Of a DNA stretch of 64,000 nucleotides, positions 1 through 46,190 are shown piece by piece. Within the stretch, counting starts at the first letter, position 1. Every line of letters starts with the position of its first letter. The notes below the pieces were generated by a model that was not told where the DNA came from, searched no databases, and worked only from the letters and a program-made list of their open reading frames with translations. Source of the stretch: Vibrio fluvialis (GTDB lineage Bacteria > Pseudomonadota > Gammaproteobacteria > Enterobacterales > Vibrionaceae); contig NZ_UHIP01000001.1 in the NCBI RefSeq assembly GCF_900460245.1, positions 1,054,001 to 1,118,000 of the forward strand. Direction: 5' to 3'. Both the position numbers and the translations under genes were made by a program.

Positions 1-1
1 G

Positions 2-1866: not shown

Positions 1867-1974
1867 TGATTTCTTGCGTGACGTTCATTCACAGAGGTTC
1901 ATGCAATTAAACTATATTATTGATAATTAAATTATTTATAGAGCTATTCTTCTTGATTAGGTGATAAGTAACAA

Positions 1975-2020: not shown

Positions 2021-2185
2021 GATTTTCTCAGTTCTAAAGTAGGCTCCCTGTTTGGTTTGGAATGTAGTCAAACAGAACAATCCACGTCGCTGACTTGCAG
2101 GCTTTTTCTCCTCGCAGTGGGCTTAAACCTGATCTGCAAACACGACGTGAGTGTGTGACGTTTATGCTGACGAAAGGAGAAAAAA

Positions 2186-4258
2186 ATGACAGCATCACAC
2201 CTTGTCCGACAAAACAAACCGTCTACAACTCTCAATACAAAGGTTTGCATTTTGTCGGGCATGATCATGAGCCTGTGCCACGCCCCTTTGGCGCTGGCTG
2301 AAGACACCAACGCGACCCAGCCTTCGGCGGTTTCCACCATCACTGTGTATGGTGAGAAAGTGGCGCGTTCGATGCAGGAAACTAGTGCCAGCGTCGAAGT
2401 GTATGATGAAAGCAAAATCGACTCGATGCCCAATGCCACCGACGTGATCGACCTGCTGCAAAACACACCGAACATTGTCGATGTGGGTGTCGGCAACGAT
2501 GTGCCTGCGATTCGCGGTATTGACGGTTCTGGCGCGGCGCGCGGCGCGAACGCTTTCCTCAACGGTACGCGTCCACGTTTGAACGTGTCTCTTGATGGCC
2601 GCTCGCTGACTTACAATGAACTGGCGTTTGGCCCGCAATCGCTGTGGGACTTGCAACAGGTTGAAGTGTATCGCGGTCCGCAAAGTTATATTCAGGGCCG
2701 TAACGCCATGGCAGGCGCTGTGGTGCTGCAATCGAAAGATCCAACCTATCAATGGGAAAGTTCCATTCGCGGTTCGTATGGTGAGCAGGGTTATTCACAA
2801 ACGGCGGCTGTAGTGTCTGGCCCGATCATCGACAATGAACTCGCGTTCCGTCTGTCGATTGACCGCCAAACTCGTGAAAGCTTCGTGGACATGCCATCGT
2901 ACGATCCGGTTGGCGACCCGCGTGACGTCGAAACCATCACTGCACGCGGTAAGTTGCTGTACGAGCCTTCTGCGCTGCCCGGTCTCTCCACCAAGCTGAC
3001 GATCAACCACTTCGACAGCAAAGCGCCGCAAAACGAAGCGTTGATCCCGTCTGCTGAACATCAAAGTGCGCGTTATGATGAACGTCGCCCGGTATTCGAA
3101 ACTAAAAATACCAGCGGTATCTGGGATTTGGAGTATCAAACCGCAGGCAATTTGCGCTTTGAAAACCAAATTGCCTACACCGATTTCACCATCAACCGCC
3201 GCACGGCCACCACGTTGCCTTACGCCAATATTGATGGTGCGGAATTCCATGTTGAACCAGTGGTGCACTTTGCCACCAACGATGAGCAGTGGCGCGGTTT
3301 AGCGGGCTTGCGTTACTACCACTCCTCGCAAGACGAATATGTTTACCTGTTTGGCGGCAGCACGTTTGACGACAAAACCGAGACCGGTTCAGCATTTGCG
3401 GAAGTCACTTACGCGGTCTTGCCAGCGGTTGATTTGACGCTCGCAGGACGCCTGGAAAGCGAACACCGCACCCGTAAGGGCGGCAGTTCAACGGTGGAAG
3501 TCGATTTTGACGAAACCTACAACGTGTTCCTGCCAAAAGCGGATGTGGCGTGGAAGCTGAATCGTGACCACACGGTCGGTGTTATGGTCGCCAAAGGCTA
3601 CAACGCGGGCGGCGCGGGTATGACCTTTGATACCCCTTACACAGCATATACCTACGATGAAGAGTATGTGTGGAGTTACGAGATGTACACGCGCCACCGC
3701 CTGCTGGATGGCAAAGTCGAGCTGACATCGAACTTCTTCTACAACGATTACGATGATCTGCAACTGCCGTTCTACATCAGTGCGCGTACCACCAAAATCA
3801 TCAACGCCGAGAAAGCCCAGACTTACGGTGCCGAATTCAGCTCACGCTGGTTGCCAATCTCGGATCTGGAACTGTCGGCAGCGGTGGGCTTGCTGAAAAC
3901 CAAGATCAACAAGTTCAGCGATAGTGAATACGAAGGCAATGAACTGCCACGTGCGCCGTCTTACAGCATGAACTTTGGTGCGGATTACACCTTCTTCAAC
4001 GATTTCGTGTTCAGTACGACGGTTAACTACACCGATACCTACTACTCGTACTACGACAACGATGAGATGGGTAAGATCGATGCAGATTGGATCACCAACG
4101 TGCAGCTGGCTTACAACTTCAGCATGGGCCGTGCAACGCTGTTTGCGACCAACCTGTTCAACTCTACGCAACCAACCATGATCACCGACAACGATGTGTA
4201 TACCGCTGTGACCCAGCAACCACGTCTGGTGGGTGTTTCTCTACAACTGGACTTCTGA
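2186..4258 (+). CDS. TonB-dependent outer-membrane ferric-catecholate siderophore receptor (ViuA-like)
   Basis: Outer-membrane receptor of 690 aa for a ferric siderophore, energised by TonB. Start ATG 2186 has a strong aaaggag ribosome site. Residues 1-38 form a long signal peptide ending ALA|ED; a TonB box (STITVYG) follows near residue 50, then the plug domain (about 65-190, with LQQVEVYRGPQSYIQGRNAMAG) and a beta barrel ending in a terminal Phe (SLQLDF). Length is close to ViuA/VuuA-type receptors. A Fur box lies upstream and a carrier protein and NRPS follow, so it probably takes up the siderophore made by this locus. The hairpin at 4267-4286 separates it from the biosynthetic genes. Family certain; ligand inferred. 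Confidence 0.92.
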   Translation: MTASHLVRQNKPSTTLNTKVCILSGMIMSLCHAPLALAEDTNATQPSAVSTITVYGEKVARSMQETSASVEVYDESKIDSMPNATDVIDLLQNTPNIVDVGVGNDVPAIRGIDGSGAARGANAFLNGTRPRLNVSLDGRSLTYNELAFGPQSLWDLQQVEVYRGPQSYIQGRNAMAGAVVLQSKDPTYQWESSIRGSYGEQGYSQTAAVVSGPIIDNELAFRLSIDRQTRESFVDMPSYDPVGDPRDVETITARGKLLYEPSALPGLSTKLTINHFDSKAPQNEALIPSAEHQSARYDERRPVFETKNTSGIWDLEYQTAGNLRFENQIAYTDFTINRRTATTLPYANIDGAEFHVEPVVHFATNDEQWRGLAGLRYYHSSQDEYVYLFGGSTFDDKTETGSAFAEVTYAVLPAVDLTLAGRLESEHRTRKGGSSTVEVDFDETYNVFLPKADVAWKLNRDHTVGVMVAKGYNAGGAGMTFDTPYTAYTYDEEYVWSYEMYTRHRLLDGKVELTSNFFYNDYDDLQLPFYISARTTKIINAEKAQTYGAEFSSRWLPISDLELSAAVGLLKTKINKFSDSEYEGNELPRAPSYSMNFGADYTFFNDFVFSTTVNYTDTYYSYYDNDEMGKIDADWITNVQLAYNFSMGRATLFATNLFNSTQPTMITDNDVYTAVTQQPRLVGVSLQLDF

Positions 4259-4266
4259 TGTCCCCC

Positions 4267-4286
4267 GGTGCCCGGTAGCGGGCACC
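4267..4286 (+). terminator. Hairpin between receptor and aryl carrier protein gene
   Basis: ggtgcccg / cgggcacc, an 8-bp GC-rich stem with loop gtag, followed by gctatttt. It starts 9 bases after the receptor stop. The weak T-run suggests partial termination or mRNA 3'-end protection, which would give more receptor than NRPS transcript. Confidence 0.6.
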
Positions 4287-4369
4287 GCTATTTTCACCCT
4301 CTGGCGAGTGAAACCGTAGTTGGCAACCGCGCACCAGAGAACCTTTGCGAACACCCACGGAGCTCAACA

Positions 4370-4648
4370 ATGGTCGATGCAAAACAACTGGTGATCAACG
4401 AAGTGACCCAAGCGCTCGCGCTGCCTTCTCATGCCTTCAATTTTGACACCAACCTCTACGAAATGGGCCTGCATTCACTGCTGATCCTGCGCCTGAGCGA
4501 ACGTTTCAGCGCCGAGTACGGCAGCTATATCGGCTATCTTCCTCTGGCATCTCGACCGACATTAAATGAGTGGATTGCGCTGGTTCAGCGCGCCCTTAAA
4601 TCCCCAACCGATGACCACTCTCAGTCACAAGGAACGAATCATGAGTGA
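4370..4648 (+). CDS. Free-standing aryl carrier protein (ArCP)
   Basis: Small carrier protein of 92 aa that would hold an activated aryl acid (probably 2,3-dihydroxybenzoate) on a phosphopantetheine arm. ATG 4370 has a ggag site 8 bases upstream; an upstream in-frame start at 4268 would run through the hairpin and is rejected. The pattern (TNLYEMGLHSLLILRLSERF ... PTLNEW) resembles the C-terminal ArCP of VibB/EntB/AngB. The probable attachment residue is Ser36 in GLHSL, where the family usually has GLDSV/I. Normally this domain is fused to an isochorismatase; here it stands alone. It overlaps the NRPS gene by 8 bases. It is a substrate for the phosphopantetheinyl transferase at 8392. Which acid it loads is inferred from context. 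Confidence 0.8.
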   Translation: MVDAKQLVINEVTQALALPSHAFNFDTNLYEMGLHSLLILRLSERFSAEYGSYIGYLPLASRPTLNEWIALVQRALKSPTDDHSQSQGTNHE

Positions 4649-7571
4649 ATACCATTCTTTTGCGCCTCAGCGCTCGGCAGACAGCGCCGCACAGCCGCAC
4701 CAGCTCAGTGAATTTGAGCAGCAGGTGTGGCTGCACCATGAGCAGTGTGGCGACAGTTCGCATCAATGGCTGAGTGCGTTTCGTTTGAGTGGCGACGTGC
4801 ATCTTTCTCTGTTGCTTGAAGCGCTGGAGTCGATGTTGCAATCACTGCCAGACCTGAATGTGCGCTACCAGCTCAATGATGAGTTTGACCTGATCAAGTT
4901 GTTCTCTACGTCGCCCGGTCAGCGAGTGGAGTTGGTGCAGGTCGCTGACCGAACCGAAGCGGTGCAGCATTTGCTTAACTGGCAAAACGAACGCATCGAT
5001 TTAGCCTTCGAACCGCCGATGCAATTTCGCTTACTGCTTGGCGATGAACTGATTCTGGCAGCTCGCCACCACCGTATTCTCGCGCACAACATCAACTGGC
5101 AGACGCTGCTTAACTCACTGAGCAGTTTTTATCAGGGCGAACTCAATGCCGAGGCTTGGACGCAGTCACATCAAACTGAGTTGCCGTTGGCGCATCCGCT
5201 CTATTCGCGCGAGCAACCTTTAAATTCGGCCTACTTATGGCTCGCAGCCAGAGAGAGTTCAGCGCGCAGCAGCATCGAATGGTTGGGTAGCGAACGAATC
5301 AAAACCACCCAGCGTCGCGCAGAAAAAGTGCGTGTATCGCTGCCGGTGCATGCGTTAACGCAACTGACCGAACATAAAGGGGCGCAGGCAAGTCTTGATC
5401 ACGGCGTGATGCTGTGCGCGGCCGTCACCGAGTTCGCCCGCTTCATCGCTCGCCTGAGTGGTAAAACGCAGCAAACGGTGTTTGCGCCCAAACAGGTGGT
5501 TCAGCGCCATCATGAACTCAACGGCAGCGTAGTGCAAAGTGGCTTATTGCGTCTCACGCTCGATACCGCCAATCAACCTCGGAAGACATTGTTCGATAAC
5601 GTCGAAAACCAATGGCGAGTCGGTGAATCGAACGCTTGCGGTCTCGCTAACCCCGATGACTTGGCGATCTTGGTTACCTGGAGCGTCGATCCGGCCGTGC
5701 ATCTGCGCTTGGGAAAAGTACAGACGGAAACCGTACGTCTGGCGCCGCTGCATTGTGATTTTGACCTGGTACTGGCACTGGGAATCAGCTGCGACAACAA
5801 GCTGCTGCTGGAATTGACCACCGGCGAGCGTCTCTCGCCTTATATCGCCGGTTGGCTGCTGGAGCAGTTTACCGCTTCGCTCGGCCATGACATCAATATT
5901 GCCGTAACGACGACACCAACGGAATCGGTGGTGAATGAGCTCACTCCGCAGCGCGGCGAACGTGAACGCATTGCGGCGTTGATCGCCGAAGCATTTGGCG
6001 CTGCACTCAACAGAGCCAACTTCTCGATTCATGATGATTTCTTTGATTTCGGTGGCCACTCGCTGATCGCCACGCGCGTGATTGGTCAACTTAAAACCGA
6101 GCATCAGGTCGAAGTGCACATTAACGATCTGTTCAGCCAGCCGACGGCGTGGGGATTGGCAGAACACGCGATTTCGCACAGCCACTCGCTTCCTGTTCAA
6201 GCGCAAAATGAGGTGCAACCGATGCGCCATCACGTGCCGCTGTCGTTTGCGCAGGCATCGTTGTGGAAAGCGTACGCGGCCTTTGGTTACAACGAACTGT
6301 TTAACATTCCGTTTGCGCTGCGCTTTTTAGACCCGGTGGATGAAACGCTGTTTGGTCTGGCGTTTGAAGATGTGATGCGCCGTCATTCGGTGCTGCGGAC
6401 TCGCTTTGTGACCGAGGGCGATACCGTTGAGCAACATGTGGTGCCGGAAGCTGATCTCAGCCAGTATCGCTGGTTCTGGCGCTCAGAAGACACCGGCAAC
6501 GTCGAGCGACAAACCGCGCTGAATCAGGAAGCATCCCATGTCTTTGATTTGAGCCGTGAGCTGCCCGTCAGGCTGCGCTTTGTGCGCGATCCAAACTCGG
6601 GGCTGCAATATCTGTCGTTCCTGTTCCATCATGTGGTGCTGGATGAGTGGTCGGTGAACGTGCTGATGGATGATTTGCGTGAGGCGTATCAGGCTCGCGC
6701 ATCAGGATCCACGCCGCAGTGGCGCGCGCAGCCGCTGCCGTTTAGTGAATACGCCGCCCGCCAACATGAGCAGGGTTTTGATGAGTCGCATTTAGCCTAC
6801 TGGCTGAAGCAGTTTGACGGTGTGCCGCTGAATGCGCCGCTGCTGCCAGAGTTGCAAAATCAGCCGGATGCCGAGCCGTCCGATGCCGGCGGCTGGGTGG
6901 AATTTAAACTCGATACCAACGTGGCATTGGGACTCAATCAGCTCGCACGCCAGCAGGGCGCGTCGCTGTTTAACGTGGTGTATGCGGCGATTTCGCTGGC
7001 GCTGAAAAAACTGGGCGCGCCAAGTCAACTGATTGTCGGCACGCCGGCCTCCGGGCGTCTGGATGCGGAATTCTTCGATACCGTGGGTTATTTCACCACG
7101 CTGGCGATGCATGTGGTGCATTTTGATCGCGCCGAGTCGGTGGCAGAGCTCATCGCACAGGTGAAAAACACCATCAACGAATCGTTGGATTATTCCGATG
7201 TACCGATTGATTGGGTTGAAGATGCGTTGCTTGGCGAGCGAACCGACAAACATCATCTGTTTGAGGTGATGATTCAACTGCATGCCAAAAACAAACTGCA
7301 CGGCGAGCTGGTGAGCGCGCAGCAGGCGGTGCGTTTTGAGCAGGTCGACCCGGAAAAAAGTGAGTCGGCGCTTGGGCTGCAATTTGAAGTGATGGAAGAG
7401 CGCGTGGGCGGTGAAGACCGAGTGCGCGTATTGATGAGTTATCGCAGCGATCAATATGGCGACGCGCAGGTGAACACCCTGACCGAGGCCACGCAACGTA
7501 TGTTGGCACGTTTTGCTGAGCCAAATGCCGAACACACCGCTTTGAGCGAACTCATCAAGGAACACAACTGA
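4641..7571 (+). CDS. Nonribosomal peptide synthetase, C(degenerate)-PCP-C, siderophore assembly
   Basis: NRPS of 976 aa without an adenylation domain. ATG 4641 follows an aagga site and overlaps the carrier gene by 8 bases. Domains in order: a condensation-like domain (about 20-420) whose HHxxxDG motif is degraded to HHRILAH (143-149); a peptidyl carrier domain (about 435-510) with GGHSL and the phosphopantetheine Ser474; and a second condensation domain (about 530-960) with HHVVLDEWS starting at His663, so both His and the Asp are kept. This matches my recollection of the tail of VibF (Cy-Cy-A-C1-PCP-C2), in which C1 is also inactive. The last domain could acylate a polyamine such as norspermidine with the PCP-bound unit. 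The Cy/A half must be encoded elsewhere. Domain build is clear; product is inferred. Confidence 0.85.
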   Translation: MSEYHSFAPQRSADSAAQPHQLSEFEQQVWLHHEQCGDSSHQWLSAFRLSGDVHLSLLLEALESMLQSLPDLNVRYQLNDEFDLIKLFSTSPGQRVELVQVADRTEAVQHLLNWQNERIDLAFEPPMQFRLLLGDELILAARHHRILAHNINWQTLLNSLSSFYQGELNAEAWTQSHQTELPLAHPLYSREQPLNSAYLWLAARESSARSSIEWLGSERIKTTQRRAEKVRVSLPVHALTQLTEHKGAQASLDHGVMLCAAVTEFARFIARLSGKTQQTVFAPKQVVQRHHELNGSVVQSGLLRLTLDTANQPRKTLFDNVENQWRVGESNACGLANPDDLAILVTWSVDPAVHLRLGKVQTETVRLAPLHCDFDLVLALGISCDNKLLLELTTGERLSPYIAGWLLEQFTASLGHDINIAVTTTPTESVVNELTPQRGERERIAALIAEAFGAALNRANFSIHDDFFDFGGHSLIATRVIGQLKTEHQVEVHINDLFSQPTAWGLAEHAISHSHSLPVQAQNEVQPMRHHVPLSFAQASLWKAYAAFGYNELFNIPFALRFLDPVDETLFGLAFEDVMRRHSVLRTRFVTEGDTVEQHVVPEADLSQYRWFWRSEDTGNVERQTALNQEASHVFDLSRELPVRLRFVRDPNSGLQYLSFLFHHVVLDEWSVNVLMDDLREAYQARASGSTPQWRAQPLPFSEYAARQHEQGFDESHLAYWLKQFDGVPLNAPLLPELQNQPDAEPSDAGGWVEFKLDTNVALGLNQLARQQGASLFNVVYAAISLALKKLGAPSQLIVGTPASGRLDAEFFDTVGYFTTLAMHVVHFDRAESVAELIAQVKNTINESLDYSDVPIDWVEDALLGERTDKHHLFEVMIQLHAKNKLHGELVSAQQAVRFEQVDPEKSESALGLQFEVMEERVGGEDRVRVLMSYRSDQYGDAQVNTLTEATQRMLARFAEPNAEHTALSELIKEHN

Positions 7572-8399
7572 ATGGAGTACAAAGAAACCGACATGAATAG
7601 CGACATTGAAGCGCGCCTGACGGGCCGCAACTTGCGTTTAGGTTATGAAGGGTACACTGTGTTTGATGGCATTGATGTGCGCATTCCCGATGGCAAATTT
7701 ACCGTCATTGTCGGTCCTAATGGTTGCGGAAAATCGACCTTACTGCGCACGCTGTGCCGCTTGCTCAAGCCCAAAGCAGGGCAGGTCTGCCTCGATGGGC
7801 AGGACATTCATGGGCTGCCGACCAAAGCGCTGGCGCGCCAGTTAGGACTGTTGCCGCAAAGCGCCACGGCGCCCGATGGCATTCGAGTGGTCGATTTGGT
7901 GGCGCGCGGGCGTTATCCGCATCAGGAACTGTTTCGCCAATGGAGTCTGGGCGATGAACGCGCGGTGCGCGCGGCCATGCAGGTGACGGGCATTGACGCG
8001 CTGGCCGAACGCCAAGTGGATGAACTTTCGGGCGGTCAACGTCAGCGGGTGTGGATTGCGATGGTGCTCGCGCAGCAAACACCGCTGCTGCTACTCGATG
8101 AGCCGACGACGTATCTCGACATCGCTCATCAGATTGAGCTGCTGGAACTGTTTCGCGATCTCAACCGCAACAGCGGCCACACGCTGATCGCGGTGCTGCA
8201 CGATCTCAATCAGGCGTGTCGTTATGCCGACCACATGATTGCGATGGCACATGGCAAAATCATCGCGGAAGGCAATCCGAGCGAACTGATCAGCGCTGAC
8301 TTGGTGCGTGACGTGTTTGGCCTGGAAAGCGTGATCATTGAAGATCCGGTCAGCCACACGCCGTTGGTGATTCCACGCGGTCGCAAACGGCATGAATGA
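7572..8399 (+). CDS. ABC transporter ATPase for ferric siderophore (FepC-like)
   Basis: Cytoplasmic ATPase of 275 aa that would drive the FecCD permeases at 2-1866. Walker A GPNGCGKST, signature LSGGQRQR, Walker B LLLLDEPT, then the H-loop in VLHDLNQA are all intact; RGRYPHQ is typical of the iron-siderophore subfamily. ATG 7572 directly follows the NRPS stop with aaggaac 8 bases upstream; ATG 7593 is an alternative giving 268 aa. The gene is split from its permeases by the receptor and synthesis genes, so the locus mixes uptake and assembly. It overlaps the next gene by 8 bases. Confidence 0.93.
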   Translation: MEYKETDMNSDIEARLTGRNLRLGYEGYTVFDGIDVRIPDGKFTVIVGPNGCGKSTLLRTLCRLLKPKAGQVCLDGQDIHGLPTKALARQLGLLPQSATAPDGIRVVDLVARGRYPHQELFRQWSLGDERAVRAAMQVTGIDALAERQVDELSGGQRQRVWIAMVLAQQTPLLLLDEPTTYLDIAHQIELLELFRDLNRNSGHTLIAVLHDLNQACRYADHMIAMAHGKIIAEGNPSELISADLVRDVFGLESVIIEDPVSHTPLVIPRGRKRHE

Positions 8400-9117
8400 G
8401 TCTTTTCTCAGCGCGCCGATGCAATGTGAGTTGGGCGGGTATACGTTGCATTTGCGTCAGTTTGAGGTGGCGCGTTATGTCGCGCCCCCGTCGGCATCGC
8501 ATGAGCGCATGCCGTATGGGTTAACGCTGCCGGAGGATTTACAGCGCGCGGTGGCAAAACGCCAAGCGGAATTTCTCGCGGGCCGCGTGGCTGCGTGTGA
8601 TGCGCTGCAAGCGGCGGGCGTGACGCCGCAGATGCTGGCGGTGGGCGAGCATCGCGCGCCGCGGTGGCCGCAAGGTGTGGTGGGCTCGATTTCACACAAC
8701 GAAAACCTCGCGCTGGCGGTAGCGCAGCGGGTCGACAGTGACGTTGACGCGTTGCTGCTTGGCGTGGATGTGGAAAGCCGGATTGATGACTGTTCACTGC
8801 CCGCCATTCAAAGCACGATTGCGACTGCGCAGGAAGCGGCCATTTTGGAACGGGTATCTCTCAATGCCGCGCAGTGCGTCACCACGTTGTTTTCGGCCAA
8901 AGAGAGCTTATTCAAAGCGCTGTATTCTCGCGTGGGGCAATACCTTGATTTTCACGATTCGTGTTTGCTGACATGGGATGAAGCGAATGGGCGATTGACG
9001 TTGCAATTGGTGCAGCGCGCTGCGGAACTGGCTGGCGGCGCATGGGTGTTTGAGGTGCATTATCTCTGGGATGAACAGCGCGTCATCACGCTGGCGCAAT
9101 GCCGCGCGTCATCCTGA
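8392..9117 (+). CDS. 4'-phosphopantetheinyl transferase, EntD/Sfp superfamily
   Basis: Moves the phosphopantetheine group from CoA to the carrier domains of this locus (Ser36 of the ArCP and Ser474 of the NRPS). 241 aa with the EntD-type motifs: GSISHNENLALA, the metal-binding GVDVES, and FSAKESLFKALYS. It overlaps the ATPase gene by 8 bases and is the last gene of the operon, ending in the hairpin at 9129. VibD is the matching enzyme of the vibriobactin pathway. It could also prime other carrier proteins, including the two ACPs of the ape cluster at about 53 kb, where I see no own transferase. Confidence 0.9.
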   Translation: MNESFLSAPMQCELGGYTLHLRQFEVARYVAPPSASHERMPYGLTLPEDLQRAVAKRQAEFLAGRVAACDALQAAGVTPQMLAVGEHRAPRWPQGVVGSISHNENLALAVAQRVDSDVDALLLGVDVESRIDDCSLPAIQSTIATAQEAAILERVSLNAAQCVTTLFSAKESLFKALYSRVGQYLDFHDSCLLTWDEANGRLTLQLVQRAAELAGGAWVFEVHYLWDEQRVITLAQCRASS

Positions 9118-15156: not shown

Positions 15157-15299
15157 TTGGGCTCCTAATCTCCGACAATCAGGAACCGGTTTAGCACAGT
15201 GGAAGTCAACCGCTGGTGGCTAAACGGCTGCCGGGCTGGCAGCCATACGCTTGGTGATAGTGCCACTTTTCAAAGCGGGAGCATCGCGAAACGTAAATA

Positions 15300-15396
15300 G
15301 TTCCCTACGTCAGTGCTAACTGAATCAGGTTCTACGGGTCTCGCGCCGCTGCCGCAGGGCAGTGGGGGGCGATCTCAGCCTTGTGGCTCCCCGACT
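15300..15396 (-). ncRNA. TPP riboswitch (THI element) controlling thiD-thiM-thiE
   Basis: Read on the minus strand, the hallmarks of the thi-box appear in order: ggggagcc, aaggctgagat, gagaccc, then gaacctgattcagttagcac and gtagggaa. It senses thiamine pyrophosphate and shuts down the operon. Between it and thiD two stems are possible: ggctgcc / ggcagcc (15226-15244), and gtttagc / gctaaac (15189-15225). Neither has a U-tract after it, so control may be at translation or by Rho. The rest of 15157-15488 holds nothing else I can name. Confidence 0.95.
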
Positions 15397-15488
15397 ATAG
15401 GCGTCGATGATAGCAGATGTGTGGCGCTCGGAGCTAGGTTCGTGTGACATTGCCGCTGAACGTGCAGGAATCAGCGGCAACGGGCAGG

Positions 15489-16871
15489 TTAGAGGCGAAT
15501 GATGTGGTGACAGGTTTTCTCCAGTGCCACTTTGTCGTGGCTGATCAGCACCAGCGCGCAGCCCATTTCCTGCGTCAATGTGGTCATCAATTGCAATGTG
15601 CTGGCGGCCGTCACGGGATCGAGGCGTGAGGTGGGCTCATCGGCAATCAAGAGTTTGGGTTTCATCAGCAACGCGCGCAAAATTGCAAAGCGTTGCAGTT
15701 CGCCGCCGGACACTTGAGTCACTTTTCGTCCCAGCAGCTGCATCGACAATTTGAGCTTGGCCATCAGCGGCTCAATGCGGGTTGGGTCGATGGTGTGGCG
15801 TTGACACAAATCGCTCAGCAGCGTGTGCAGCGTTGCACTTTTCGGCAGCGCACTTGGCGGATCCTGATACAGCTTGAGCACATCGCCTGTCGCAAACGGT
15901 GTGGTGTGCCGCAACGTGCCGCCGGTGGCGCGTTTTAGGCCGACCAGAATGTCCGCCAGCGTGGATTTTCCACATCCGCTGTCTCCGCTGATGCCCAGAA
16001 TTTCGCCCTGCGCAATGGAAAAATTGAGCTGCTCAAACAGCGTGCGATCGCCGTAATGCATACTCAGGTTTTCTACGTGCAGCACCGGCTCACCAACTGT
16101 CGGTAGCGATACGCTTGGCCAGAAACGTGGGTCCGCGGCGATCAGCGCTTTGGCGTAGTCCGATTGTGGCGCGCTCATCACTTGTTGCGCAGGCCCTCGC
16201 TCTTGCACCACGCCTTTTTTCATCACGATGATTTCGCCGCCCAATTGCTGCGCGACTTCAATGTCGTGCGTGATGGTCAGCACCGCGCCGCGCTGTTTAT
16301 GGCTCAGCAACTGCGCGATGATTTGGTCGCGGCGGCTGACGTCCAGGCCTTTGGTTGGCTCATCGGCAATCAGCAGTTCACCACCGGCTTGGGTCGCGCA
16401 CAAATAGGCCACGCGCTGCGCCATCCCGCCGGATAATTGATGCGGGAATTTCGCCATGTCGTCACCCAGTTCAACGCCCTGAAATGCCGCGTGGGTATGG
16501 GTGTGCGCTTGCGCGGGATCGCCATTGACCATCTCGTGCACTTCGCGCACCTGTTCGCCCACCGCCATCAATGGGCTTAGCGCGTACCACGGTTCTTGTG
16601 GCAAAACGGCCAGCTTTTTTCCCCACAGCTGTTGGCGAGCGTCGTGGCTGAGGTCGCGCTGCGTGTCGCCAAATAGCGTCACGTCGCCTTGCATGGTCAG
16701 CGTTTCCGGCAAGGTGCCGATAATGGCGTTGGCCATCAGGCTTTTACCCGAGCCGGTTTCGCCCAAAATCGTGACCGCTTCACCGCGACGAAGCTCAAAT
16801 GACAGCGGCTCAACCAAGGTTTGCTCACCGGCTTGAATCGATAACTGCTCGACGTTCAATAACACACTCAT
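15489..16871 (-). CDS. Peptide/nickel-type ABC transporter, fused double ATPase (DppD-DppF fusion)
   Basis: One chain of 460 aa carrying two nucleotide-binding domains that are separate proteins in Opp/Dpp/Nik systems. Domain 1 (about 1-235): GETGSGKS, LSGGMAQRV, LLIADEPT. Domain 2 (about 255-460): GDSGCGKST, VSGGELQRF, LLIADEPT. Both are complete. The cysteine-rich tail found in DppD/OppD-type ATPases is missing. ATG 16871 gives a 4-base overlap with the permease gene; a start 26 codons earlier is possible but would lie inside that gene. Last gene of the operon starting at 20158. Substrate not shown by the sequence; see the Zur box at 20170. Confidence 0.9.
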   Translation of the reverse strand: MSVLLNVEQLSIQAGEQTLVEPLSFELRRGEAVTILGETGSGKSLMANAIIGTLPETLTMQGDVTLFGDTQRDLSHDARQQLWGKKLAVLPQEPWYALSPLMAVGEQVREVHEMVNGDPAQAHTHTHAAFQGVELGDDMAKFPHQLSGGMAQRVAYLCATQAGGELLIADEPTKGLDVSRRDQIIAQLLSHKQRGAVLTITHDIEVAQQLGGEIIVMKKGVVQERGPAQQVMSAPQSDYAKALIAADPRFWPSVSLPTVGEPVLHVENLSMHYGDRTLFEQLNFSIAQGEILGISGDSGCGKSTLADILVGLKRATGGTLRHTTPFATGDVLKLYQDPPSALPKSATLHTLLSDLCQRHTIDPTRIEPLMAKLKLSMQLLGRKVTQVSGGELQRFAILRALLMKPKLLIADEPTSRLDPVTAASTLQLMTTLTQEMGCALVLISHDKVALEKTCHHIIRL

Positions 16872-17656
16872 GCCTGCTTCCCTCGCGCCAACAGGTGAAA
16901 ACTCATCACTAAGAAAAACACCACCACAATCGGTTGAACCAGCACCCACGGCGCCTGTTGGTAATAGCGGAACAGCTCTACCATCATCAAACCGAGTTCG
17001 GCCGCAGGCGGCTTAAGGCCGACGTACAAAAAGCCAATGGAGGCCAGCGCCAGAATCGCGTTGCCAGCGCCAAAGCAGCCGAGGGTAAACAGGTCGGTGC
17101 GCAGCTCCGGCCACAGGTGGCGTTTGAACTGATACCAAACGCCAAAACCGTACAAACGCGAGGCTTCGATTTCGGGTGAGTGCAACAAGCTCAAAGTACG
17201 GCTGCGCACGACGCGGAAATATTCCACCCACAATATCAACGAGATGGCGAGATAGAGGATCAAAAACGACCCCGGCACCATGGCGCCAAACAGCAGCACC
17301 AGAATCAGCCCCGGCATGGCGAGTAACATATTGACCAACCACGAGAGCGATTTATCCCACCAGCCGCCTTTCCAAGCGGCGGTCACGCCGGCCAGCAAAC
17401 CCAAAGCGGCCGAGGTGACCACGCTCACTACCGCCATCAGCAGGGAGGTGCTCACGGCGCTCGCTAAGCGGGCGTAGTTGCTGCGGCCATAATGATCGCG
17501 TCCCAGCGGCTCTTGCCATGAGGGCGAGGCAAAGGCTTGCGCCAAGGATTGCTGCGCGGGATCGCCGCGGTAAATCAGGGCTTCAAAGGCAGCAAAAACC
17601 ACCAACGCGGCGAGAATGCTCATGCCTGCCCATTGACTGCGCGAGAACTGTTTCAT
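16868..17656 (-). CDS. Peptide/nickel-type ABC permease (DppC/NikC-like)
   Basis: Inner-membrane permease of 262 aa. An N-terminal membrane span (residues 10-30) is followed by a short periplasmic stretch with EPLGRDHYGRSNYARL, which matches the GTD-x-GRD-type block of DppC/OppC proteins, then several spans and an EAA-type loop (EIEASRLYGFGVWYQFKRH) that docks the ATPase. ATGA overlaps on both sides. Slightly shorter than usual DppC (about 300 aa). Pairs with the permease at 17653. Confidence 0.9.
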   Translation of the reverse strand: MKQFSRSQWAGMSILAALVVFAAFEALIYRGDPAQQSLAQAFASPSWQEPLGRDHYGRSNYARLASAVSTSLLMAVVSVVTSAALGLLAGVTAAWKGGWWDKSLSWLVNMLLAMPGLILVLLFGAMVPGSFLILYLAISLILWVEYFRVVRSRTLSLLHSPEIEASRLYGFGVWYQFKRHLWPELRTDLFTLGCFGAGNAILALASIGFLYVGLKPPAAELGLMMVELFRYYQQAPWVLVQPIVVVFFLVMSFHLLARGKQA

Positions 17657-18606
17657 GCCATCACCGCCTTGGTCGCCAAACGCTGACGTGGGTCGAGCCA
17701 GTATTGCGCGACATCGACCAGCGTGTTGATGGCCACAAACAGCAGCCCCATCAACAGCGCCGCCCCTTGAATCATGGGAATATCACGGCGAAAAATCGCG
17801 TGCGACAATGCGTGGCCGATGCCCGGCCAAGAGAACAGCGATTCAATCATCACAATGCCTTCGACTAAACTGACGGCCTGAATGCCGACAAACGCCATTA
17901 CCGGCAGCGCAATATTGAGCTGCGCGTGACGGGTAAACGCTTGTTGATGGCTCAGCCCTTTTAAGCGCGCGAATTGAAAATAAGGCGAGTTCAGTACCTG
18001 ATGCGTCGCGTTGCGAATCATTCGACTCGACATCGCAGCCATGCTCAGCGCCAGTGCCAATGCAGGCAGCACCAGATATTCGACGCTGCCAAACCCGGCA
18101 ACGGGGAACAGGTTGAAATGGAGTGCAAACACCAACACCAACAGCAAACCAATCAGAAACACCGGCTGCGCCTTGATGATGATGGAACCAAACAGCGCCG
18201 CGTGATCGCTCCACTGATTGGCGCGGCGACCGCAATACAGCCCCACCGGAATGGCGATCAGCAGCGACAGTGCGGTCGCGGCCGCAGCCAGTAGCAAGGA
18301 ATGCCCCAACTGGTGCGATAGTGCGGCGATCACCGGCTCACCGCTGACCAGAGAATTCCCGAGATTAAAATGCAGCAGGTCCCACAACCAGTTGAAATAC
18401 AGCTCAAATCCAGAGCGATCCAGCCCCAATTCTGCCTGCACCGCTTGCGCAGCTTCGGCGTTCACGTAGTCATAACCGTAACGTCCTGCGGCAATGCGGT
18501 AGGCGATGTCGCCCGGAATCAGCCGCATCAACACGAAGGTCAACGTGCCGACCGACCACGCCACAAACAGCGCCTGGTACAAACGGGATAGCAAAATCTT
18601 AGTCAT
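17653..18606 (-). CDS. Peptide/nickel-type ABC permease (DppB/NikB-like)
   Basis: Inner-membrane permease of 317 aa with the DppB opening (LLSRLYQALFVAWSVGTLTFVLMRLIPGD), the EAA loop around FARLKGLSHQQAFTRHAQLN, and the late block LVEGIVMIESLFSWPGIGHAL. I chose ATG 18606, which overlaps the binding-protein stop by 8 bases; a start 27 codons upstream would lie inside the binding-protein gene. Second gene of the four-gene importer operon. Confidence 0.9.
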   Translation of the reverse strand: MTKILLSRLYQALFVAWSVGTLTFVLMRLIPGDIAYRIAAGRYGYDYVNAEAAQAVQAELGLDRSGFELYFNWLWDLLHFNLGNSLVSGEPVIAALSHQLGHSLLLAAAATALSLLIAIPVGLYCGRRANQWSDHAALFGSIIIKAQPVFLIGLLLVLVFALHFNLFPVAGFGSVEYLVLPALALALSMAAMSSRMIRNATHQVLNSPYFQFARLKGLSHQQAFTRHAQLNIALPVMAFVGIQAVSLVEGIVMIESLFSWPGIGHALSHAIFRRDIPMIQGAALLMGLLFVAINTLVDVAQYWLDPRQRLATKAVMA

Positions 18607-20158
18607 GGAAACGCATCTCCGACACGCGGTAATTGATTTCAAACGGGTCGAATGAGAAGCCGTCGAGGTGGCGATTGACCGCGACAATCTGGCGGTAATA
18701 GGTCACCGGGATCAGCGGCATTTCGTCGGCCAGTACCGTGGCGGCTTGCTGTGCTAACTGGCGATACTGCGCCGGGTCGGCTTCGCCAGACAGTTGTTCG
18801 AGCAACGTGCTAAAGGTGTTGGATGACCAGTGCATCGGCCCCCAGTCGGAGCCTTTTTCGGTCGCAAAATCGTTCATCAGTAGCGGCAGGGGATCGGCCA
18901 AGGTGCCGAAATTGCGGGCGATGAGTGCCATCTCCAAGCTGTCGTCGTGGTGCTTGGCTGGAATGGCACTGGAGTTATCAATCGAGATCTGAACATCAAT
19001 GCCCAGTTCGCGCCATTGGGCTTGCAGCGCGGTGGCGATGAGCGGCAGCTCCGGGCGGTCCGCGTAAGTCACCAACTGCACGCGAAACATCTGGCCGTCG
19101 CGTTGCATCAGCCCTTGCGCATTGGCATGCCACCCTTGTGCGCTCAGCAACGCTTTCGCTTGTTGCAGCTTGTCCGCGTGCTGATTGTTGACGTGAGCGG
19201 TACCGGGTTGATGATCGCGCTGCGCGATGTGCCATGCACCCAGCGCAGGCGAAAACAGTTGGTAGGCTTCAGAGCCTGGCAGGCGGAGCACCGATTGCGC
19301 GATGCCTTCGCGATCCAGAGCCAAACTCAGTGCTTGTCGCACGGTTTTGTCATTCAGAAACGGGTGCGCGTTGTTGAGTTTGACCAACACCGTGCGCGGC
19401 ATCGATTCCACATGCAGGTCAATATTTTTTGCCGCTTGCAGTGTGCTGATGCTGATGGGGTCGAGGGTGTAGACCAAATCGGCTTGACCACTTTGTGCCA
19501 ACAAGGCGCGGCTTTCTGAGCGATGGCCGGCAAGGTATTCCACCGTGTCGATATGGGCAGGCGTACCCCAATAGGCGTCAAAGCGTGTCACTTTAGCTTT
19601 GTGCGGCGCTTGCAGGGTTGCAATCTGATAAGGCCCGGTGCCTTGTAATTGAATCACTTTGCCGCTGGCGTCCATCGAGCTTGGCGCGATAATCGCGGTG
19701 GAGTAGTGCGCCAGCACTGAGGGCAGCGCGCGGTAAGGGCGATCCAGCGTGATGACCACGCGATCGTTCAGCGCGCTGATCGACTGAATCGGTACTTGGC
19801 GAATCACGCCCGGTTTGGCGAGCGCGATATTAAGCGACTGCGCTGCCGCCTGCGCACTCAGCAGTGTGCCGTCGTGGAAATGCACGTTCGGACGAAGGGT
19901 GAATGTCCAGCTCAGGCCGTCATCACTTTGCTGCCAGCTTTGTGCCAACAGCGGGTAAGGTTCGGCGTCATCGTTGATGCCAACCAACGATTCCACCACT
20001 TGTAGACGGGAAAACACAAACCCGTCTTTCGACAGATCCTGACTGTTGAATTCAAACGGGCCAGAAATAGAGAGTGTGTCGTGCGTCGTGGCAGAAGGTT
20101 TCCAAAATAGAGTCGCGCCCACGCCCAACACCAGAGCGAGTATCAATAGCTTTTTCAT
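18599..20158 (-). CDS. ABC transporter substrate-binding protein, peptide/nickel family (SBP_bac_5), candidate metallophore binder
   Basis: Periplasmic or membrane-anchored binding protein of 519 aa. ATG 20158 starts a hydrophobic leader (MKKLLILALVLGVGATLFW); no lipobox and no clear cleavage motif, so it may remain anchored. Family blocks: ESLVGINDDAEPYPLLAQSW, DDGLSWTFTLRPNVHFHDGTLL, VRQALSLALDREGIAQ. The family binds peptides, nickel complexes, haem or metallophores. The promoter carries a Zur-box match and a Fur-like palindrome (20170-20216), pointing to metal or metallophore uptake rather than peptide nutrition. Ligand is inference; family is certain. Confidence 0.88.
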   Translation of the reverse strand: MKKLLILALVLGVGATLFWKPSATTHDTLSISGPFEFNSQDLSKDGFVFSRLQVVESLVGINDDAEPYPLLAQSWQQSDDGLSWTFTLRPNVHFHDGTLLSAQAAAQSLNIALAKPGVIRQVPIQSISALNDRVVITLDRPYRALPSVLAHYSTAIIAPSSMDASGKVIQLQGTGPYQIATLQAPHKAKVTRFDAYWGTPAHIDTVEYLAGHRSESRALLAQSGQADLVYTLDPISISTLQAAKNIDLHVESMPRTVLVKLNNAHPFLNDKTVRQALSLALDREGIAQSVLRLPGSEAYQLFSPALGAWHIAQRDHQPGTAHVNNQHADKLQQAKALLSAQGWHANAQGLMQRDGQMFRVQLVTYADRPELPLIATALQAQWRELGIDVQISIDNSSAIPAKHHDDSLEMALIARNFGTLADPLPLLMNDFATEKGSDWGPMHWSSNTFSTLLEQLSGEADPAQYRQLAQQAATVLADEMPLIPVTYYRQIVAVNRHLDGFSFDPFEINYRVSEMRFHD

Positions 20159-20169: not shown

Positions 20170-20192
20170 GAAATGTTATAACATAACAATAT
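20170..20192 (-). promoter_or_regulatory. Zur box overlapping the importer promoter
   Basis: The 23-base stretch agrees with the gamma-proteobacterial Zur consensus (GAAATGTTATA-n-TATAACATTTC) at 19 of 23 positions by hand count, including an intact GAAATGTTATAA left half and ATAACA in the right half. It lies 12-34 bases before the start codon of the binding protein on its coding strand, a position where a bound repressor would block transcription. Confidence 0.72.
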
Positions 20193-20197
20193 TGCAG

Positions 20198-20216
20198 CAT
20201 GAGAATGGTTCTCATG
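20198..20216 (-). promoter_or_regulatory. Fur-box-like perfect palindrome
   Basis: catgagaatggttctcatg is a perfect 8+3+8 palindrome. Its core matches the 7-1-7 Fur model TGATAATnATTATCA at 11 of 14 scored positions, with the TGAGAA/TTCTCA variant common in Vibrio. Only 5 bases separate it from the Zur box, so the importer may be controlled by iron and zinc together. Confidence 0.6.
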
Positions 20217-20293
20217 TCTAGTACAAATTGAACGTTAGCAGGAAATAATATCCCGACCTGAGCATGGCATCAGGCCGGTTTGAGCTGAGAAAA

Positions 20294-20893
20294 TCAGGCG
20301 GAATAGAGTGTCAGGAAGGTGTCGACTGCGCGCAGGGTGGTGGCTTTGAGTTCTGCTGGCTTAGGTTTTTCAATCGCACCTAAGGCGAACGGTTCAATGT
20401 GCTCCGCCGACAGTAATGCTTTGAACTGCATTGCAGCAATCCAGGTATCGCAGGCCTTCAAAGTGCCTTTTTTCACCTGACTGTCGATGTAATCGCTCAG
20501 GTGTGTCCAACCACATTTCGGACCATTTTCATAAAAGTGACGGCCAATCGATGATCGGTCAGCTTCGTGAATCGCCATGCGGTAAATGGCCATGGCATCC
20601 GGCGTCAGAACAGAGCTTAAAAAATTGTAACCAAATTCTAAAAGTGAAGTGCGAATTTCACGATTCGGGTCAAGAGAGAGGAAAGATTGAGCAATTTGTT
20701 CGGTCGCTGAAGACTTCATGACCGCACAAAAGATCTCTTCCTTAGAGCTGAAGTAGTTGTAGAGCGTCGCTTTGGATCCACCCAGTTCCTTGGCAATATG
20801 GGACATGGAGGTTTGTTCAAATCCTTGCTGTGTAAAGGAATTTTTCGCAATTTCCAAAATGGCCTGTCTTTTTTCTTCGCTTTTTACTCGCAT
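20294..20893 (-). CDS. vceR: TetR-family repressor of the divergent efflux operon (VceR-like)
   Basis: DNA-binding repressor of 199 aa. The helix-turn-helix lies at about residues 25-50 (QTSMSHIAKELGGSKATLYNYFSSKEEIF), with a C-terminal ligand-binding region of the AcrR/TetR_C type. It is divergent from an outer-membrane lipoprotein, membrane fusion protein and 14-TM pump, the gene order of vceR-vceCAB of V. cholerae, where VceR represses the pump until a drug or bile salt binds. A 28-base palindromic site in the shared promoter (20959-20986) is the likely operator. The symbol rests on this arrangement. Confidence 0.82.
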   Translation of the reverse strand: MRVKSEEKRQAILEIAKNSFTQQGFEQTSMSHIAKELGGSKATLYNYFSSKEEIFCAVMKSSATEQIAQSFLSLDPNREIRTSLLEFGYNFLSSVLTPDAMAIYRMAIHEADRSSIGRHFYENGPKCGWTHLSDYIDSQVKKGTLKACDTWIAAMQFKALLSAEHIEPFALGAIEKPKPAELKATTLRAVDTFLTLYSA

Positions 20894-25345: not shown

Positions 25346-25364
25346 GTTGATAATACTTCTCATT
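25346..25364 (+). promoter_or_regulatory. Fur box upstream of the AraC-type regulator
   Basis: TGATAATACTTCTCA (25348-25362) matches the 7-1-7 Fur model at 12 of 14 positions. It is 54 bases before the regulator's ATG, so the activator gene itself is probably repressed by iron. Confidence 0.65.
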
Positions 25365-25417
25365 AACTGCGAGTTTGTGCGACACTAAGCCCTCTGTTTT
25401 TGAGGTGTTTTGCTGTC

Positions 25418-26287
25418 ATGACTCGTCCTTCTTTATCGTTTAATCGCCTTTGCAAACTGCTGGACTACATCCATGCGCATCTGGATCAGCCGTTGTCGCT
25501 GGATGATTTGGCGCAGCAAAGCTGTTGGTCACGCTGGCAATTACAGCGAGTATTTCAGAGTGAAACCGGACTGACCGTGGCTAACTACGTGCGTGAGCTG
25601 AAACTGAGCGAAGCCGCCGAAAACCTGATTGGCGGCTCAGAGCGGGTGATTGATATTGCGCTCGCCAACGGTTTCAGCTCTGAAATCAGTTTTAGCCGCG
25701 CGTTTCGGCAGCATTTTGGGCTAAGCCCGCGTGACTATCGCAAGCTCGGTCGTCGCACCGGGCTGCGCAAACCGTTGCAAACCACGCAGCGCCCACCTCA
25801 GGTAAGCCAAGCGCCGCAACTGATGCAGTTGCGGGTCGAATCGGCTGAATCGGAAACCTTTTATGGCCTTGCGACGCCGATTCGTGGCTTGCTGGCTGCA
25901 GAGCCTGATTTTGCTGAGCAGGTGCCAAGTCTGTGGGCGCAGTTTTCGCCGCTGATTGAGCATCAAGCCACGCAGCCACTGACCGGCGTTATCGACGTGA
26001 CTGCTGCCGCTCACAATGAGCAGCCCCTAATCTATTGGGCAACCTGTGGCCAATCGCTAGCAGGCTGCGAGCCAGTCACTGTGCCAGCGCAAACTTACGC
26101 AGTCGTGAAACATCGCGGGCCGATTGCCTTGCTGCCACAAACGCTGGCGTGGTTTATCTTCGACTGGCTGCCGCAATCGAACTATCGCGGTGTGGATGGG
26201 TTTGAACTGGAGCGTTACCCCGATGGCTACGACGGCACGGCTTTGAATGCTGAGATGGAATACTGGCTACCGGTTGAAATTGCCTGA
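25418..26287 (+). CDS. AraC-family regulator with Rob/GyrI-like effector domain
   Basis: Transcription factor of 289 aa built like Rob: the AraC DNA-binding domain is at the N-terminus (about 10-110, two helix-turn-helices with LDQPLSLDDLAQQSCWSRWQLQRVF and GFSSEISFSRAFRQHFGLSPRDYRK) and a GyrI-like small-molecule-binding domain follows (about 140-289). ATG 25418 is chosen; a TTG six codons earlier is weaker. A Fur box precedes it and a Fur-controlled siderophore receptor follows in the same direction 103 bases later. It may activate that receptor when the siderophore or another ligand is bound; this is inference from position. Confidence 0.85.
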   Translation: MTRPSLSFNRLCKLLDYIHAHLDQPLSLDDLAQQSCWSRWQLQRVFQSETGLTVANYVRELKLSEAAENLIGGSERVIDIALANGFSSEISFSRAFRQHFGLSPRDYRKLGRRTGLRKPLQTTQRPPQVSQAPQLMQLRVESAESETFYGLATPIRGLLAAEPDFAEQVPSLWAQFSPLIEHQATQPLTGVIDVTAAAHNEQPLIYWATCGQSLAGCEPVTVPAQTYAVVKHRGPIALLPQTLAWFIFDWLPQSNYRGVDGFELERYPDGYDGTALNAEMEYWLPVEIA

Positions 26288-26345: not shown

Positions 26346-26364
26346 AATGATAGTTATTCTCACA
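26346..26364 (+). promoter_or_regulatory. Fur box upstream of the ferrichrome-type receptor
   Basis: TGATAGTTATTCTCA (26348-26362) matches the 7-1-7 Fur model at 12 of 14 scored positions, 27 bases before the receptor start codon. Confidence 0.72.
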
Positions 26365-26390: not shown

Positions 26391-28538
26391 ATGGATTTGA
26401 ATCCACACGCCACATTTTCGCCGATCGCGTTGGCGATCCTGTCACTTTTGATGCCCACCACCAGTGTTGCCGCCGATGAGCCAAGTGGCTCAGAAACGGA
26501 AACGGTGACCATTTTAGGTCAGACTTATCGCAACACCGCGACCAAAACCGCGCTGGCGCCGGAAGAGACGCCGCAAGGCATCACCGTGATTGACGGTGAA
26601 CTGCTTGAGCAGCGCGGTGTGCCATCGGTTGGTCAGGCGCTGCGCTACGCACCTGGCGTGGTGACGGAAACCAAAGGCGGTTCGGTCACCATGTACGACA
26701 ACTTCTACATTCGTGGTTTTCAGGTCGACCAAAGCTATTACGGCGGCTTGGTACTGCAATACCTCAAAGGCTGGAACTTGCAGCCACAGATTGACCCGAT
26801 TGCGATGCAGCAACTGGAGATCTTCAAAGGGCCAACATCGGTGTTGTATGGCGCGATGCCTCCGGGCGGCATGGTGAACGTGATTGCCAAAGCGCCGCAA
26901 AAGCAGCGCAGTACCGAAGTGTCGGCCTCCACGGGTTCGCGCAATTTGCAGCAGGTGACGCTCGATACCACCGGGCCACTGAGCGATGCACTCTCTTACC
27001 GTTTGATTGCCAAAGCGCGCAAACAGGACGGTCAGGTCGATGGCACTGAGGAAGAGCGCTATTTGATTGCGCCGTCACTCGACTGGCAAGTCACCGACAA
27101 AACGCTGATCAATCTTAACCTCTATTATCAGAACGATCCGTCGATGGGCATGAACTCGGCCTTGCCCGCGTCGGGCACCGTGACGTCCAACGCCAACGGT
27201 TCAACGTCCTCCTCGACCTATGCTGGCGACACCAACTGGAGCACATTCGAGCGTGAAATTCTGATGCTGGGTTATAAAGTGCAGCATCAGTTCACCGACA
27301 ACTGGGCGTTCTTACAGAACCTGCGTTACACCGATGCGTCGCTGAGCCAGAAAAACCTCTATCACAGCAGTGGCGGTTTTGATGAAACCACGGGCGTACT
27401 GACGCGCAACATTTACAGCACCGATGAAAGTTACAACGGTTTGGTGGTCGATAACCAACTGTCTGGCGTGATCAACTGGGGCAGCGTGGAACACAATCTG
27501 CTGTTCGGTGTTGATTACCAACGCCTGAAAGGCGACTCGCTGTATAAAACCTACACCACCACCGACAGCGATTTTTACAGCTTTAACCTGTTCAATCCCA
27601 ACAACAATTTGCTCGATAGCAGCACAGTGTCGGCGCAGTATGCATACGACTACGATATCGCAATCAAACAGCTTGGCGGTTATTTCCAGGATCAACTGCG
27701 CTGGAATCGCTGGGTGCTGATTGCCGGCGGGCGTTTCGATCACTACACCAGCGAAAGCGTGGTGTCCGGTTACAGCACCAAAGCCGACGACAACGAGTTT
27801 TCTTATCGCGTTGGCGCGCTGTATCAGTTTGATTCCGGGTTCGCACCGTTTGCCAGCTACGCCACCAGTTTTTCACCAGTGGCTGGCACCGACAGTCAGT
27901 TCGGTCAGCCGTTCAAGCCGGAAACAGGCGAGCAGATGGAAGTGGGCGTGAAATATCAGTCGGCGGACATGAGCAAGCAGGCCAGCGTGTCGCTCTACCA
28001 CATTGTGAAAAACAATGTAGTGGTGACGGACCCAAGCTCGGCTAACTATCAGGATGATATTCAGGTGGGAGAAGTGCGCTCACAAGGCGTAGAAGTTCAA
28101 GGCCGCTGGTGGCTGATACCAAACTGGGACATCGCGGCAAGCTACACTTACGCTGACGTCGAAGTGACCAAAGACAGCACCAATGGTTTGCAAGGGACTA
28201 CGCCGATTTATGTACCCAAACACAGCGCCACCTTATGGAGCACTTACCAAGTTGATGAAGGGATGTTGGGCGGCAGCAGAGTGAGCGGCGGCGCGCGCTA
28301 TGTCGGTGAAATGTACATGGACGCGACCAATACTCAAGGCAAAGTGCCGGATTACACCGTGGTTGACCTGTCACTGGGTTACGATCTCGGCCGCGTGAGT
28401 GAGCGTCTGCAAGGGGCGCGTGCGGATCTTATCGCCAGTAATCTGTTCGATCGGGAGTACTACACCTGCTACAACAACATGAACTGCTGGTATGGCGCGG
28501 AACGCACCATCGAGCTGAAACTCGGTTATCAGTTCTAA
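26391..28538 (+). CDS. TonB-dependent siderophore receptor, FhuA/FoxA-like (hydroxamate type)
   Basis: Outer-membrane receptor of 715 aa. Signal peptide 1-28 (SVAA|DE), TonB box ETVTILGQ near residue 37, plug domain with RYAPGVVTETKGGS, FYIRGFQVDQSYYGG and IFKGPTSVLYGAMPPGGMVNVIAK, and a beta barrel ending in aromatic YQF. The RYAPGV and GPTSVLYGxxxPGGxVN blocks are typical of the ferrichrome/ferrioxamine group rather than the catecholate group, so it likely takes up a xenosiderophore. A Fur box lies just upstream. Two Cys close to the C-terminus (CYNNMNCW) could form an extracellular disulphide. Confidence 0.92.
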   Translation: MDLNPHATFSPIALAILSLLMPTTSVAADEPSGSETETVTILGQTYRNTATKTALAPEETPQGITVIDGELLEQRGVPSVGQALRYAPGVVTETKGGSVTMYDNFYIRGFQVDQSYYGGLVLQYLKGWNLQPQIDPIAMQQLEIFKGPTSVLYGAMPPGGMVNVIAKAPQKQRSTEVSASTGSRNLQQVTLDTTGPLSDALSYRLIAKARKQDGQVDGTEEERYLIAPSLDWQVTDKTLINLNLYYQNDPSMGMNSALPASGTVTSNANGSTSSSTYAGDTNWSTFEREILMLGYKVQHQFTDNWAFLQNLRYTDASLSQKNLYHSSGGFDETTGVLTRNIYSTDESYNGLVVDNQLSGVINWGSVEHNLLFGVDYQRLKGDSLYKTYTTTDSDFYSFNLFNPNNNLLDSSTVSAQYAYDYDIAIKQLGGYFQDQLRWNRWVLIAGGRFDHYTSESVVSGYSTKADDNEFSYRVGALYQFDSGFAPFASYATSFSPVAGTDSQFGQPFKPETGEQMEVGVKYQSADMSKQASVSLYHIVKNNVVVTDPSSANYQDDIQVGEVRSQGVEVQGRWWLIPNWDIAASYTYADVEVTKDSTNGLQGTTPIYVPKHSATLWSTYQVDEGMLGGSRVSGGARYVGEMYMDATNTQGKVPDYTVVDLSLGYDLGRVSERLQGARADLIASNLFDREYYTCYNNMNCWYGAERTIELKLGYQF

Positions 28539-43231: not shown

Positions 43232-43238
43232 GGCTTAT

Positions 43239-46189: not shown

Positions 46190-46190
46190 A

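Follow-up and report, generated by a model that had tools for sequence, protein, structure and literature searches.

Which substrate does a bacterium bring in through an importer of the peptide/nickel type whose genes carry a zinc-responsive operator? This question is raised by a four-gene operon on the minus strand of a 64 kb stretch of the Vibrio fluvialis genome (assembly GCF_900460245.1, contig NZ_UHIP01000001.1, positions 1,054,001 to 1,118,000; hereafter the window, whose own coordinates are used below). The assembly (G000) comprises 4.86 Mb in two contigs. A first-pass annotation of the window had read the operon as a peptide-type ATP-binding cassette (ABC) importer controlled by both Zur and Fur, and had suggested that it takes up a metal chelate, perhaps one made by other organisms, pointing to importers of opine-like metallophores in the same family. 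The four genes, encoding a substrate-binding protein, two permeases and a single-chain ATPase, form a cluster C (Nik/Opp-type) ABC importer, in agreement with that reading. Below, we present the evidence that this operon is almost certainly a Zur-repressed importer of zinc starvation, and weigh what it may carry.

The Zur operator

A Zur-type site at 20170-20192, 12-34 bases before the ATG at 20158, matches the consensus at 18 of the 22 specified positions, or 19 of 23 when the N is counted, as originally reported. It is the top match on both strands of the window, where the runner-up reaches 14/22, and it contains the core TGTTATGTTATAACA at 20174-20188 on the minus strand. Across the genome, the core pattern TGTTATRNTATAACA has only three perfect places and two more at one mismatch, and the other four of these five precede the DUF2607-zrgA pair, ribA, znuA and the gene of an L31 paralogue. 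These four are among the Zur targets known from V. cholerae, where a published study names Zur sites for ZnuABC, Zrg, RpmE2, RpmJ, RibA and ShyB (PMC8248653). When two mismatches were allowed, the genome scan gave 15 and 11 places against 15 and 14 for the reversed control, and because this looser pattern is no commoner than its control, weaker matches are uninformative. A fair negative control is provided by the Opp operon in the same window (58170 onwards), whose best upstream core reaches 10/14. The operon thus has a genome-specific Zur-type operator at its promoter, which is the mark by which we assign it to the Zur regulon. The genome has two Fur-family matches, to which NCBIfam gives the names Fur and Zur, one each.

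Concerning another of these sites, the perfect core before ribA lies near G000:C1 1349089 (L107), and ribA is followed on the same strand by an imelysin-type (PF09375) gene and two more genes.

Conservation of the operon and its operator

Of 197 Vibrionaceae genomes, 41 encode a relative of the binding protein (E 1e-80); with a V. cholerae query, 61 of 227 genomes of the genus do so (E 1e-100), and with a Ferrimonas query, 39 of 394 genomes of the order (E 1e-90). A class-wide search at E 1e-110 added no further genome among 369; it used a profile of close relatives and scored few candidates per genome, and the result of the order-wide Ferrimonas query shows it to be an undercount. The V. fluvialis protein is 95-97% identical to those of Vibrio furnissii CIP 102972 and another congener. 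Across the loci the four-gene set stays together, and the flanking genes differ.

The operator is conserved as well. Of 65 loci, 47 have a Zur core of 12/14 or better in about 360 bases and 41 have one of 13/14 or better, whereas dinucleotide shuffles of nearly, not exactly, the same stretches reached these scores in 1 and 0 of 260 cases, respectively. Pantoea and Alphaproteobacteria are represented among the 47, some with adjoining zinc genes. The 65 loci count one record twice (L115 = L215), and here as elsewhere close relatives are counted among the loci, which do not represent independent events. Within 900 bases, a core of at least 12/14 is present in 51 of 64 loci. In view of the rank of the site in the window, its specificity in the genome and its conservation relative to the shuffles, we reject the idea that it arose by chance. 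Together with published experiments on the apparent V. cholerae orthologue discussed below, these results uphold the proposed Zur control.

The Fur-like palindrome

The TGAGAA/TTCTCA palindrome that had been noticed is indeed present, at 20200-20214, and its arms can be extended to eight bases (20198-20216), which brings it to 5 bases beyond the Zur 23-mer. It fits the degenerate Fur pattern TGANAATNNTTNTCA without mismatch. Nevertheless, its assignment to Fur is less secure than that of the operator to Zur, because it falls outside the 14 places in the window that best match the 19-mer Fur consensus of E. coli type. In the 60 bases that precede the Zur core, 10 of 51 loci have an element matching at least 10 of the 11 positions of the pattern, compared with 0 of 408 control windows; for at least 9/11 the figures are 23 of 51 and 10 of 408. 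Among the 20 loci with at least 55% identity, 19 hold a Fur-like element of at least 9/11 whose first base is always 23-35 bases ahead of the Zur core, and the other four loci with a 9/11 element are L128, L139 and the Pantoea loci L213 and L231. The element is perfect in V. fluvialis and in L111, L114 and L123, the last of which comes close to a textbook Fur box. In the V. cholerae-like locus L176 it is degenerate (9/11), it reaches only 5-7/11 in five alphaproteobacterial loci, and it is mostly absent from distant relatives.

How these observations should be read is a matter of weight. The palindrome is real, and its pattern and placement make it a plausible Fur site, mainly in one set of Vibrionaceae; judged by the sequences, Fur control of the operon would be fairly probable. 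There is nevertheless a substantial chance that the palindrome is some other element and that the operon answers to zinc alone. Its place outside the best E. coli-type 19-mers, its degenerate form (9/11) in the V. cholerae-like loci and its absence from most distant relatives speak for this, as does the reversed control, which at one mismatch still gives about a third of the genome matches (31 and 27 against 95 and 93). The perfect fit to the pattern, also seen in three other loci, the conserved placement before the Zur core and the empty control windows at 10/11 speak against it. Of the original proposal of iron control, the palindrome therefore stands, and its identity as a Fur site is plausible.

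Two other genes in the window also have a Fur-like site directly upstream, namely an AraC-family gene (25400-26287; site at 25348-25362, no mismatch) and the gene of a FhuA/FoxA-type TonB receptor (26391-28538; site at 26348-26362, one mismatch).

Relation to known systems

Zur control of such an operon is not new, having been published for an apparent V. cholerae orthologue (PMC8248653) and for a Paracoccus operon (PMC5387054). In V. cholerae, the vca1098-vca1101 transporter is strongly upregulated in a zur mutant, Zur control was verified by a lacZ fusion, Zur box mutants were also built, and the transporter was dispensable for the congregation phenotype (PMC8248653). Furthermore, AphA binds between VCA1097 and VCA1098 (PMC6855506), and VCA1099 is tabulated among the genes altered in a riboflavin experiment (PMC5816637). 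We take VCA1098-VCA1101 to be the orthologue because the binding protein is 68-69% identical to a V. cholerae family member (P0005, locus tag unverified) and because of the context of L176, a near relative with the same gene order and the same Zur core that, by eye, is divergent from chemotaxis genes, matching the arrangement in the available text of PMC8248653. Identity, the four genes and the operator thus agree with an apparent orthology, although the genomic place differs and the Fur-like element is degenerate there.

In Paracoccus denitrificans, zinc depletion raises expression of the Ni/dipeptide-type operon pden1341-1344 by a factor of 12.6 to 16. This operon carries a Zur motif, its promoter binds Zur in a gel shift, and its specificity was left open by the authors (PMC5387054). 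Like the V. fluvialis operon it encodes a binding protein, two permeases and a single ATPase gene product; a COG0523 gene lies within that operon, and a zinc motif is the only one reported in the available text (PMC5387054). A P. denitrificans family protein (P0165, not tied to the Pden1341 locus tag) is 39% identical to the V. fluvialis binding protein and shares most of the ligand-site signature described below. In the available parts of both reports, the substrate of vca1098-vca1101 (PMC8248653) and that of pden1341-1344 (PMC5387054) are not settled.

Two better-known importers provide further points of comparison. E. coli NikABCDE, which is controlled by NikR, likewise has a family-5 binding protein of the same fold and NikB/NikC-type permeases, but in V. 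fluvialis one fused ATPase replaces NikD and NikE, NikA cut-offs are missed and His416 is lost. The staphylopine importer CntABCDF of S. aureus is of Opp type and stands under Fur and Zur boxes (PMC7594338), a setting that the V. fluvialis importer resembles with its Zur operator and Fur-like palindrome. However, the synthesis genes cntKLM belong to the cnt operon, and the binding proteins are distant (83.7 bits; 21% in the structural alignment).

The binding protein and the neighbours of its relatives

The binding protein and the permeases score best against nickel-transporter families, with all family scores under the cut-offs. Thus, the binding protein obtains 165.2 bits against a cut-off of 393 (TIGR02294) and 243.5 against 600 (NF045468) with the NikA models, and 119.6 bits against 800 with the CntA model. 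It has the NikA/Dpp fold, and its closest solved relatives include nickel binders, but comparison of structures failed to separate metal binders from peptide binders. At the level of residues, what stands at the place of NikA Arg137, a chelator contact, depends on the alignment: one shows a gap in all 55 members, and in the other 12 of 45 members have Arg and 24 have Ser. The family has its own set of invariant residues, which constitutes a separate ligand-site signature; R217, R255, K260, E370, H403, N416, D430 and W439 are candidate ligand contacts.

The neighbours in distant relatives, which are examples found by inspection rather than a measured enrichment, include several zinc genes. Two Pantoea loci, L213 and L231, have a gene for a COG0523 GTPase (Pfam match on the L231 copy) that runs divergently from the operon, and a 14/14 Zur core lies between the two; by eye, two Zur-like cores seem to be present at about 9730-9885 of L213, one for each divergent gene (COG0523 and the importer). 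The Skermanella locus L214 has divergent zinc ABC genes, COG0523 and DUF1826, and upstream of the Bosea locus L219 lie two COG0523 genes, a Fur-family gene, hisI and the gene of a ZnuA-type protein. An L31 paralogue is divergent from the operon in L228, and znuA is next but one downstream, convergent, in L235. In addition, a small His-rich open reading frame (ORF) of 96-117 amino acids precedes the binding protein in L132, L136, L137, L138, L225, L226 and L228. It resembles the DUF2607 gene of the zrg operon, but only one of the six tested copies (L136 was left out) matched DUF2607 (PF10795), below the cut-off (21.9 of 24 bits), and the other five gave no match.

What does the importer carry?

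In the working model that we favour, zinc-loaded Zur would repress the four-gene operon and, at low zinc, would leave the operator beside the start codon; in this set of Vibrionaceae, iron-loaded Fur would probably add a second repression through the neighbouring palindrome. In the periplasm, the binding protein would then capture a small metal complex, and the permease pair together with the fused ATPase would carry this complex into the cytoplasm alongside ZnuABC and Zrg. The ligand would most likely be zinc, or a metal able to replace zinc, on a small chelator from the environment. The anatomy, operator and conservation are observed here, and Zur repression and binding were shown by others in relatives; metal-chelate import, Fur control and scavenging are what we infer from them. 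We regard import of a metal chelate as probable, and hold it at that strength because the regulation, the family and some of the neighbours favour it, whereas neither a residue nor an experiment shows a metal ligand. As for the suggestion that the chelate comes from other organisms, this is plausible, since a search of the genome for the opine dehydrogenase family PF10100 gave no match.

Several other observations weigh against import of a metal chelate under zinc control. The structure comparison places peptide and glutathione binders nearly level with metal binders, and His416 of NikA is not conserved, being replaced by Gly in 54 and Asn in 1 of 55 members in one alignment and by Gly in 41, Thr in 3 and Asn in 1 of 45 in the other. 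Heme uptake genes adjoin the Azospirillum locus L212 and HupE/UreJ-type genes lie upstream in L221, which hints at other metals, and among the loci whose neighbours were read, neither a zinc gene nor any other metal gene was noticed next to the operon in Vibrio, and no metal gene beside L217 or L218. None of the five Zur sites in the genome belongs to a TonB receptor. Finally, 13 of 64 loci lack a 12/14 core even in 900 bases, including all five of L233-L237, whose genomes of some 2 Mb belong to a single family, probably Pasteurellaceae. In L233, L234 and L235 of this group, a membrane protein of 236-239 amino acids is encoded directly 3' of the ATPase gene on the same strand.

Such points leave room for other substrates, whose probabilities overlap because the questions of Fur and of opines bear on the other readings as well. 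The near-level peptide binders would suit an importer whose substrate contains no metal but helps the cell when zinc is scarce, for example peptides, fragments of the wall or a derivative of an amino acid, with the metal acting only in regulation. We consider this unlikely, since the Asp that anchors the peptide amino group in DppA (D408) and OppA (D419) is absent in 55 of 55 and 45 of 45 alignment members, and the ordinary Opp operon found elsewhere in the window is without an upstream Zur core. Nickel or cobalt complexes standing in for zinc would agree with the top family scores, with the HupE/UreJ-type genes of L221, and with the Zur-controlled pyochelin-cobalt route described for P. aeruginosa in the available text of PMC11481552; with scores below every cut-off, NikA His416 lost and most of the zinc-linked neighbours being zinc genes, we think this reading quite improbable.

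An opine-like ligand, to which the first-pass annotation pointed, of the staphylopine or pseudopaline kind and either own or stolen, is not borne out. It draws on the combination, known from the cnt operon, of Zur and Fur boxes with an importer of Opp type, but the CntA score is far below its cut-off, the ligand residues differ, and PF10100, absent from this genome, occurs in 6 of 197 Vibrionaceae, only two of which (G007 and G032) are among the 41 importer carriers. Moreover, those opine clusters that take in Vibrio species carry FecCD-type importers or none (PMC7438024). We therefore hold a plain opine-metallophore importer to be very doubtful. Service to the strain's own siderophore is likewise judged unlikely, since the siderophore cluster has its own FecCD-type permease (805-1866).

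That cluster, identified by reading the sequences, spans positions 1-9117 of the window and L110, and also encodes a TonB siderophore receptor (2186-4258) and a nonribosomal peptide synthetase-like protein (4566-7571); its L110 part has several strong Fur-like sites.

Borders of the operon

The features of the operon and its upstream region are listed in Table 1. The Zur-type operator and the Fur-like palindrome both sit between the start codon and a terminator-like hairpin (20278-20253), and because this hairpin follows the upstream TetR-family gene, the operon should have its own promoter; the promoter scan did not find a sigma-70 promoter. Downstream, a thiamine pyrophosphate (TPP) riboswitch at 15285-15403 begins the thiamine transcript. 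Thus, bounded by the hairpin and the riboswitch, the operon probably stands alone; a single transcript with the thiamine genes was rejected, as the riboswitch lies between them and the neighbours vary among loci. Database versions of the binding protein (P0001 and P0005; 533 and 522 amino acids) begin 5' of the conserved MKK start. An upstream start would place the operator inside the binding-protein gene, and the ATG at 20215 falls inside the palindrome; these starts are probably wrong calls. Elsewhere in the window, a minus-strand gene run (39636-50535) includes the gene of a histidine/tyrosine ammonia-lyase-like protein (47283-48827) that is below the curated cut-offs of all matched families.

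Table 1. Positions in the window of the importer genes and of the elements upstream of them
Feature	Position	Strand	Basis
Substrate-binding protein, family 5 (SBP_bac_5), 519 amino acids, nearest NikA group	18599..20158	-	Profile/family matches; ATG at 20158
Permease 1, NikB/DppB type, start MTKILL	17653..18606	-	Family matches
Permease 2, NikC/DppC type	16868..17656	-	Family matches
ATPase, two ABC domains in a single chain (two ABC_tran stretches)	15489..16871	-	Pfam/family matches
Zur operator, 18/22, perfect 15-base core 20174-20188	20170..20192		Consensus scan, conservation
Fur-like palindrome CATGAGAA-TGG-TTCTCATG	20198..20216		Pattern scan, conservation
Terminator-like hairpin 3' of upstream TetR-family gene (20294-20893)	20253..20278	-	Consensus match only

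A possible general route for zinc

To the published Zur control our analysis adds a link between the Vibrio and Paracoccus systems, an operator preserved in two classes, a distinct ligand-site signature and, in one set of loci, a Fur-like element. We tentatively propose that the V. fluvialis operon, VCA1098-1101 and pden1341-1344 may belong to one Zur-controlled importer family, widespread in Gamma- and Alphaproteobacteria and marked by a ligand-site signature of its own, that would import a common small zinc chelate. Such a family might form a further general zinc route besides the ZnuABC-type ion importers and the importers of zincophores, and most bacteria that use it would not produce the chelator themselves. 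The groups working on V. cholerae and on P. denitrificans separately met a Zur-repressed importer of the same layout, and once both are joined with the systems of Pantoea, Photobacterium and several Alphaproteobacteria, the substrate becomes a general question. If it is indeed a zinc chelate, many bacteria would have a zinc route that is missing from the usual picture of Znu and zincophore systems.
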